Positions 63,039 through 64,000 of a DNA stretch of 64,000 nucleotides are shown here, piece by piece (positions within the stretch are counted from its first letter, which is position 1; every line of letters begins with the position of its first letter). Both the position numbers and the translations under genes were made by a program. Below the pieces are notes generated by a model. That model saw only the letters and a program-made list of their open reading frames with translations, had not been told where the DNA came from and searched no databases. The stretch spans positions 124,001 through 188,000 of the forward strand of contig JAFGTT010000027.1 of NCBI GenBank assembly GCA_016933955.1, in the 5' to 3' direction. Source of the DNA: Candidatus Zixiibacteriota bacterium. GTDB lineage: Bacteria; Zixibacteria; MSB-5A5; GN15; PGXB01.

Positions 63039-63126
63039 AAACTCACCTGTTTATTCTTCAAATTCTTCGTCGTATAACATTTTCATTGCCGGGTCATCCG
63101 GATATAGAATAATAATCCACTAAAAT

Positions 63127-63266
63127 CCTGTCATTCCCGATAATAGCCTGTCATTCCTCCAAAAAGCCTGTCATTCCCCCAAAAAGTCCGTCATTCCCCC
63201 CAAAAGTCCGTCATTCCCCAAAAAATCCTGTCATTCCCCAAAAAAGTCTGTCATTCCCGACCTGAT
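63127..63266. repeat. Seven-copy tandem repeat with an exact 20-base period
   Basis: Units start at 63127, 63147, 63167, 63187, 63207, 63227 and 63247. The core is YCYGTCATTCC followed by C and A runs. The last unit runs on into ACCTGATCGGGAA and so forms a TTCCCGA...TCGGGAA inverted repeat of the kind seen in dispersed intergenic elements. No protein is encoded. The rest of the 467-base stretch from 63039 to 63505 holds the repeat ends listed below; in 63039-63126 and 63415-63505 I see nothing clear. Confidence 0.9.
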
Positions 63267-63278
63267 CGGGAATCTATC

Positions 63279-63330
63279 TTAATCCCCTCTCGAGAGGGGT
63301 GGATTCGCCGCAGGCGAAGACGGGGTGTGT
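63279..63330. repeat. Left end of a DUF559-associated repeat (solo copy)
   Basis: These 52 bases are identical to 63506-63557. They contain the perfect palindrome CCCCTCTCGAGAGGGG and end in GGGGTGTGT. They are followed after 19 bases by the right-end repeat at 63350. Confidence 0.9.
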
Positions 63331-63349
63331 TATCCAATCTGCTCTACAC

Positions 63350-63414
63350 ACCCCCAAATCCCCTCTCAAGAGGGGACTTTGAACTTGCCCTATCATATAA
63401 TCTCGCTGGTCGGC
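63350..63414. repeat. Right end of a DUF559-associated repeat (solo copy)
   Basis: These 65 bases match 63936-64000 with two mismatches. They contain the near-palindrome CCCCTCTCAAGAGGGG. The bases ACACACCCC just inside (from 63346) mirror GGGGTGTGT of the left end. Confidence 0.88.
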
Positions 63415-63505
63415 GCTCCGAACCGTCGCAGGCAAAATAATCACACTATTGGGTTACGTTCGGATTCCTCGTTACGCTTCGCGCCACTCAAACCCGATCT
63501 CCTTT

Positions 63506-63557
63506 TTAATCCCCTCTCGAGAGGGGTGGATTCGCCGCAGGCGAAGACGGGGTGTGT
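63506..63557. repeat. Left end of the DUF559 cassette
   Basis: These bases are identical to 63279-63330 over 52 bases. They overlap the last codons and the stop of the DUF559 gene, so the protein tail 'HTPSSPAANPPLSRGD' is encoded by repeat DNA. Confidence 0.9.
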
Positions 63558-63913
63558 ACCAAAATCCAATTATCAATAGTTACTACAACACCCTCAATGT
63601 TCGTCTTCACATCGCTATCATAAAACCTCAAAAATTCAATTCCCAGGGATTCCAGTTTTGCCTGCCTTATCTTATCTTCTATTTTTTTGCCTTCGTGACT
63701 ACTTCCATCAATTTCAATTGCCAACAATAACTCATTACAAAAAAAATCAATAATAAATTGATCAACCGGTTTTTGTCTATGGAAGTCATATCCTCGTCTT
63801 TGTTTACCCTTCAAGTAATGCCAGAGAATCTTCTCAGAAGCAGTACTATTATTTCTTAATTGCCGTGCCTTTTTTTTCAAGTCAGGATTGTATTTAATAA
63901 TCTCACGTTTCAT
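63506..63913 (-). CDS. DUF559 (Vsr/PD-(D/E)xK-like) endonuclease-domain protein
   Basis: The 135-residue product (ATG at 63913) has the DUF559 pattern: 'ARQLRNNSTASEKILWHYL', 'RRGYDFHRQKPVDQFIIDFF', 'LLAIEIDGSSHEGKKIEDKI' and 'LGIEFLRFYDSDVKTN'. The Asp and Glu of 'IIDFF...IEIDGSSH' are in place for a nuclease-like site of the restriction-endonuclease fold. No substrate is established for the family. The open frame runs upstream to 63982, but that part ('MMGQVQSPLLRGDLGV') is repeat DNA, so I start at MKREIIKY. No ribosome site is evident. Confidence 0.85.
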   Translation of the reverse strand: MKREIIKYNPDLKKKARQLRNNSTASEKILWHYLKGKQRRGYDFHRQKPVDQFIIDFFCNELLLAIEIDGSSHEGKKIEDKIRQAKLESLGIEFLRFYDSDVKTNIEGVVVTIDNWILVHTPSSPAANPPLSRGD

Positions 63914-63935
63914 AATACTTAAGCTTTGATTACAT

Positions 63936-64000
63936 ACCCCCAAATCCCCTCTCAAGAGGGGACTTTGAACTTGCCCCATCATATAATCTCGCAGGTCGGC
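63936..64000. repeat. Right end of the DUF559 cassette
   Basis: These bases match 63350-63414 with two mismatches up to the last base of the window, so the true end may lie further right. Confidence 0.88.

Follow-up and report, generated by a model that had tools for sequence, protein, structure and literature searches.

A DUF559 nuclease gene between palindromic ends: a probable member of a homing-type cassette family with gene-less derivatives

Near the right edge of the window, by which we mean the whole 64,000-nt stretch analysed here (G000:C27:124001-188000, G000 being the window's genome), a DUF559 gene lies between two ends that also occur next to it without the gene. What kind of element is this, and does the protein belong with its ends? 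The first-pass annotation had inferred a small element family, mostly non-autonomous, whose nuclease-like protein may act on, or be carried by, its own ends. The observations behind that inference are all reproduced. The two left ends (63279-63330 and 63506-63557) are 52 nt long and 100% identical; the right ends match over 70 nt at 96% identity (63345-63414 and 63931-64000), a match that contains the 65 nt noted before, and in the empty copy 19 nt separate 63330 from 63350. Palindromes are present in both ends of both copies (63284-63299, 63360-63375, 63511-63526 and 63946-63961), and the inner edges are inverted, with GGGGTGTGT (63322-63330 and 63549-63557) facing ACACACCCC or ACATACCCC (63346-63354 and 63932-63940, respectively). 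The gene was correctly named as DUF559 (PF04480, E=1.9e-28). The features of the locus are as follows.

63279..63330, + strand: left end of unit 1 (gene-less copy), with the stem TTCGCCgcaGGCGAA inside
63284-63299, + strand: left palindrome of unit 1, CCCCTCTCGAGAGGGG
63322-63330, + strand: motif GGGGTGTGT of unit 1
63331..63345, + strand: 15-nt loop TATCCAATCTGCTCT of the inner GGGGTGTGT/ACACACCCC hairpin of unit 1
63346..63375, + strand: right end of unit 1, consisting of ACACACCCC (63346-63354), a spacer and the palindrome CCCCTCTCAAGAGGGG (63360-63375)
63376..63505, + strand: spacer of about 130 nt after unit 1, from the alignment of units 1-3
63506..63557, + strand: left end of unit 2 (gene-bearing copy), with a palindrome (63511-63526) and GGGGTGTGT (63549-63557)
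63506..63913, - strand: DUF559 (PF04480) nuclease gene of unit 2, ATG at 63913, TAA at 63506-63508
63932..63961, + strand: right end of unit 2, with ACATACCCC (63932-63940) and the palindrome CCCCTCTCAAGAGGGG (63946-63961)
63962..64000, + strand, continuing past the window end: start of the second spacer copy, leading to unit 3
G000:C27:188092-188192, just outside the window: unit 3, gene-less, from the alignment of units 1-3

Unit 1 (63279-63375) runs in the order palindrome, small stem, GGGGTGTGT, 15-nt loop, ACACACCCC, palindrome. In unit 2 (63506-63961) these ends are found again, and the DUF559 gene stands in place of the 15-nt loop, its reading frame crossing the left end before it reaches the TAA. 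The second kind of palindrome, CCCCTCT-CA-AGAGGGG, consists of two 7-bp arms round a non-palindromic CA. The DUF559 unit of the window is the middle one of three, and the spacer recurs nearly identically after units 1 and 2 in the alignment. Judged from this sequence, the array probably arose when the element was duplicated in tandem together with its spacer, and adjacent filled and empty copies alone are therefore no proof of transposition. As single-stranded DNA the element is predicted to fold into nested hairpins (z=-6.1); a search of it against Rfam gave no match above threshold. Immediately to the left, six 20-nt tandem units with GTCATTCCC occupy 63117-63278 and end in ATTCCCGACCTGATCGGGAAT. 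This ATTCCC..GGGAAT palindrome adjoins the same side of nearly every element copy in this genome, presumably a dRS3-like pattern, as if the element used or carried it.

The ends are not confined to this locus, and the family is larger than the first-pass annotation had noted, with the third unit just past the window. A 151-nt element query gave 30 BLAST matches in the window's genome, and exact CCCCTCTNNAGAGGGG sites number 37, as against 0 for the reversed control pattern; together with the predicted folding, these counts argue that the element is not a chance product. About 20 copies on many contigs are gene-less with an intact inner hairpin and the conserved 15-nt loop, the remaining ones are halves or cut at contig ends, and only one copy bears DUF559, which agrees with the proposed small and mostly non-autonomous family. 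Many contig ends of the assembly (on C8, C12, C25, C26, C31, C32, C33, C36 and C27) coincide with element copies, so that the copy number is probably underestimated. The interior of the DUF559 gene has a GC content of 33% compared with 48% for the window, a value matched by only 2 of 678 sliding segments. By composition it looks as if the gene came from outside while the ends are of local type.

The protein matches DUF559 with 98.9 bits (Pfam gathering cut-off 20.6), the domain spanning 63572-63880. Seven residues, T24, E27, D56, E67, H73, D80 and R96, are invariant in 71 sequences, and the conserved E, D, H and D would fit a catalytic set, activity being inferred. For structure prediction the window protein and the locus proteins were used, the plasmid protein rows being left out. 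The AlphaFold2 model of the window protein (pLDDT 90.6) has as its nearest solved structures in Foldseek 3hrl, itself a DUF559 protein, and 3r3p, which is the catalytic domain of the homing endonuclease I-Bth0305I (probability 1.00, TM 0.65/0.79), followed by a weak match to Vsr; profile searches gave E=1.4e-32 for 3hrl and E=1.7e-6 for 3r3p. The enzyme is a PD-(D/E)XK/EDxHD-type nuclease with the homing-endonuclease/Vsr fold and not a Y1/HUH transposase. The earlier comparison with RAYT/REP therefore stands for the arrangement of palindrome pairs but not for the enzyme. A DUF559 protein of Caulobacter, CCNA_02930 (VsrA), has been proposed to be a Vsr-like T:G mismatch endonuclease and repair enzyme (PMC12907096), and in Legionella, segments carrying a transposase together with DUF559 were reported to be recombination hotspots (PMC12308824).

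Does the nuclease keep company with such ends elsewhere? We picked 77 DUF559 loci by protein alone from GTDB genomes other than the window's; 68 had enough flank. In 62 of the 68, one or both flanks have a CCCCTCT/CCCTCCT palindrome within 250 bp, and in 46 both do; among 2001 control windows, taken from the same contigs at a distance of more than 1 kb, 15 had one. Across phyla the ends share a common plan, from the outside in T-CCCCTCT-TG-AGAGGGG, 2-5 nt and GGGGTGTGT, inverted at the two sides, and the palindrome centre is TG in 51 of 70 oriented ends. Cassettes span 423-594 bp and possess terminal inverted repeats. The 4-nt-centre palindromes fall together in one clade of a 68-protein DUF559 tree (19 of 20 rows; a contig edge truncates the 20th), a clade in which Planctomycetota, Calditrichota, Zixibacteria and Bacteroidota are intermingled; Bacteroidota overall use both types. 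The centre type (2-nt or 4-nt) changes 2 times on this tree compared with 16.8 times with shuffled labels, which argues that the palindrome follows the protein and not the host phylum. The suggestion that the nuclease is carried with its ends is borne out by this recurrence across phyla.

All 35 genomes of such loci contain palindromes, 1-33 each (control 0). The genome G066 has about 13 gene-less copies at different places, with full ends as in its gene-bearing copies. DUF559 genes on plasmids or megaplasmids of cyanobacteria, alpha- and gammaproteobacteria and Deinococcus are accompanied by other C-rich palindromes, counted with arms of at least 8, in 11 of 14 cases (control 15 of 224). Of 6 weak or fused DUF559 domains none had palindrome flanks, and the E. 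coli locus was likewise without them. In a 99% complete genome (G033) with 32 palindromes of the same element anatomy no DUF559 gene was detectable; the gene is thus not needed to keep the palindromes. Within the window's own order, DUF559 and the window-type palindrome coincide only partly by genome, and this co-occurrence is weak because palindromes of other types accompany the DUF559 relatives of that order, and the gene is missing from some genomes rich in the repeat. We also considered a portable reading frame and rejected the idea, since the DUF559 frame is not preferentially open through the right palindrome (12 of 43, compared with 22 and 12 for the other two frames).

Several single loci deserve mention. 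A DUF559 pseudogene with several stops (L033, G010:C10) still has palindromes at its flanks, in a genome with 16 of them. At L208 (G131:C268:4962-5541), eight 78-nt tandem units each comprise a half-element (ACACACCCCTAA plus palindrome) and another hairpin, so half-elements can amplify in tandem. The cassettes L113 and L137 have short direct repeats at their flanks (15 nt in L137, ACAAAGCGTTAAAAA), possibly from insertion beside a pre-existing palindrome. The ends of a Sinorhizobium DUF559 cassette (L156) match 558 places in 117 rhizobial plasmid records; we take them to resemble RIME-type mosaic elements, for which we know of no mobility enzyme.

Whether the cassettes move can be judged from orthologous sites. 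In two genomes a type IIG restriction gene contains a cassette in frame (DUF7149-DUF7814-cassette-Eco57I), a third has it at the same place with one in-frame stop, and three homologues are without it. In a genus of Flavobacteriaceae (L070), three species have a cassette between two conserved genes and four have none; a fifth species without the full cassette retains one palindrome at the intergenic site, and related cassettes, 80-83% identical, are found at other loci of the genus. Two Lutibacter species have a common cassette that is 92% identical, one copy being frameshifted. Its fourfold sites are identical at 25 of 30 positions (83%), compared with 43-47% in the flanking genes; the cassette being far more alike than its flanks, it moved after the species split. 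A comparison of Sinorhizobium K101 with S. meliloti as an empty site was rejected, as the latter shows an internal deletion of the DUF559 gene with the ends kept. Direct repeats of 3-4 nt were found in 4 of 32 pairs, about the shuffled level, the outer edge not always being clear; in the G066 copies the outer flanks are partly repeated and the outer edges are uncertain. Of the earlier MITE comparison, the terminal inverted repeats are confirmed, but a target-site duplication was not seen at the edges of the palindromes. Comparison of orthologous loci, which had been proposed as a check, thus yielded filled and empty sites but not the target duplications. Mobility of the cassettes is, as far as sequence comparison can tell, well supported; gain cannot be distinguished from loss at any one site, and for the window copy itself there is no filled/empty comparison.

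The wider DUF559 family presents a similar picture. Lutibacter leuS and metH genes carry in-frame DUF559 cassettes with the palindromes CCTTTCC..GGAAAGG and CCCCCTT..GGGGG. Close relatives have empty alleles (leuS flanks 94% identical), and in 26 of 26 cases the leuS or metH insert differs in length from the empty allele by a multiple of 3 nt. The leuS host-gene tree of one genus requires at least 11 changes (gain or loss), at least 7 of them forced by starred branches, and the metH tree at least 7 changes, at least 5 so forced; the distribution of leuS inserts is no more clustered than shuffled labels. This recurrent filled/empty pattern in leuS and metH resembles homing. No intein domain was found inside the inserts, where only the DUF559 and MTES_1575 nuclease models match. 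In these cassettes the outer motif lies on the opposite side of the palindrome from that in the window-type element; with their other palindromes and reversed motif side, they are evidence on the wider family and not on the exact window element. A recG helicase gene (L238, G095:C2) has an in-frame DUF559 insert between the helicase domains.

How are these observations best explained? One could hold that ordinary REP/MITE repeats were spread by an unrelated transposase, RAYT/IS200-like or other, and that DUF559 merely landed or was trapped in them. Y1_Tnp genes are indeed present in the window's genome and in 10 of 13 other genomes tested, some repeat-rich genomes are without DUF559, and gene-less copies greatly exceed gene-bearing ones. 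However, three genomes (G081, G085 and G087) have DUF559 and 6, 22 and 14 palindromes, respectively, without any Y1_Tnp match, so RAYT is not needed, and neither Y1_Tnp place in the window's genome is near a palindrome. Mere trapping also sits badly with a palindrome type that tracks the DUF559 phylogeny across phyla, and with palindrome flanks at >90% of stand-alone DUF559 genes compared with <1% of control windows; we regard this explanation as improbable. Regulatory, terminator-like hairpins round DUF559, spread by local tandem duplication and recombination only, would account for the repeated element plus spacer of the window array and for the 78-nt tandem arrays of another genome. A promoter or terminator function would not account for about 20 copies spread over many contigs, for orthologous sites found both filled and empty, or for cassettes lodged in frame within genes, and the filled/empty alleles, as read from sequence, already contradict this idea, which has next to nothing left in its favour. 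Simple local duplication, which would have refuted the first-pass annotation, is likewise not what the orthologous sites show, though the window array still looks tandemly duplicated; the other refuting outcome, ends occurring only here, did not hold in view of the dispersed family.

A stronger competitor, though still an unlikely one, is a site-specific homing endonuclease gene with one host target, its palindromes being structural ends or terminators and the gene-less copies decayed cassettes. Repeated gain or loss at the same leuS and metH sites, the shared type IIG site in three genomes, the fold match to I-Bth0305I and the S. meliloti copy with its internal gene deletion and retained ends all suit it. 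Decay does not explain why the gene-less copies of the window's genome have a common conserved 15-nt loop that is not a gene remnant, nor the G066 gene-less copies with full ends at different places; both imply that gene-less copies spread as such.

We therefore consider it probable that the window copy is the gene-bearing member of a family of palindrome-bounded, homing-type selfish nuclease cassettes with gene-less MITE/REPIN-like derivatives. The cassette would consist of a stand-alone DUF559 nuclease between inverted ends, each made of CCCCTCT-NN-AGAGGGG, a short spacer and GGGGTGTGT; gene-less copies, two ends round a short loop, would be its non-autonomous derivatives. The nuclease may nick or cut DNA at the palindromic or cruciform ends, at the empty target allele or at both, and break repair or strand exchange may then copy the cassette into the gap in a homing-like manner. 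The same nuclease may also work in trans on copies without the gene, and arrays such as the three units of the window could be built up by palindromes recombining with one another. These steps are inferred. Dispersal, common travel of ends and nuclease, presence or absence at orthologous sites and in-frame insertion are established by the sequence comparisons, whereas cleavage by the nuclease of its own ends is deduced, there being no cleavage or binding data. The earlier reading is hence supported in substance, with direct action of the protein on the palindromes an inference only. Against the cassette reading, about 20 gene-less copies beside one gene copy are unlike efficient homing into them.

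A broader proposition is possible, and we put it forward only tentatively: DUF559 may mark out a class of very small selfish elements, ~0.45-0.6 kb in size with a single ~120-aa nuclease. Such elements would recognise the palindromes at their own ends, mobilise gene-less pairs of palindromes in trans and be able to enter essential genes in frame with no need of splicing, and they may drive several palindromic repeat families of Bacteroidota, Proteobacteria and cyanobacteria that are so far orphans. We found no link between DUF559 and palindromic repeats in the open-licence PMC literature, though one may have been described elsewhere. Annotation of the widespread DUF559 proteins goes no further than 'endonuclease domain-containing'. 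Should they prove to be the enzymes behind palindrome-bounded selfish cassettes, this large gene family would acquire a biological role, and the many short repeats at which assemblies break a likely cause; an arrangement of the REPIN/RAYT kind would also have arisen a second time, with an unrelated nuclease. Invasion of leuS, metH, recG and restriction genes in frame without splicing would show a homing-type gene living as a translated insert in essential proteins. The recurrent filled and empty leuS alleles in one genus offer a direct test system.

Among known systems, REPIN/RAYT is alike in its dispersed inverted palindrome pairs, the single enzyme gene flanked by the same palindromes, the gene-less pairs as non-autonomous copies and the absence of an observed target-site duplication. 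It differs in the partner enzyme, a TnpA_REP of the Y1/HUH type as opposed to a DUF559 nuclease of the PD-(D/E)XK/EDxHD type without a Y1 motif, and in the GTAG/CGTC tag (families of PMC3733652) where the cassette consensus ends have GGGGTGTGT; moreover, DUF559 cassettes insert in frame inside conserved genes. EDxHD homing endonuclease genes (I-Bth0305I, 3r3p) share the fold of the catalytic domain and recurrent presence/absence at one site, but DUF559 cassettes are without intron or intein and have palindromic ends and dispersed gene-less copies. Rickettsia palindromic elements (RPE) are palindromic repeats lying in frame in protein genes and carrying no gene; the DUF559 cassette, likewise an in-frame palindromic insert, adds a nuclease domain. 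MITEs are also short non-autonomous copies with inverted ends, but the gene-less elements lack a DDE transposase partner, we saw no target-site duplication for them, and their ends are themselves palindromes. Vsr and VsrA (CCNA_02930) have the same Pfam domain and fold class, VsrA being proposed as a repair enzyme (PMC12907096). By analogy, the cassette would work like a REPIN/RAYT pair in which a homing-type nuclease replaces the Y1 enzyme. As neither enzyme nor tag agrees, it is not a RAYT system, nor is it an intron or intein homing system, and that DUF559 cassettes are a separate class is a serious possibility.
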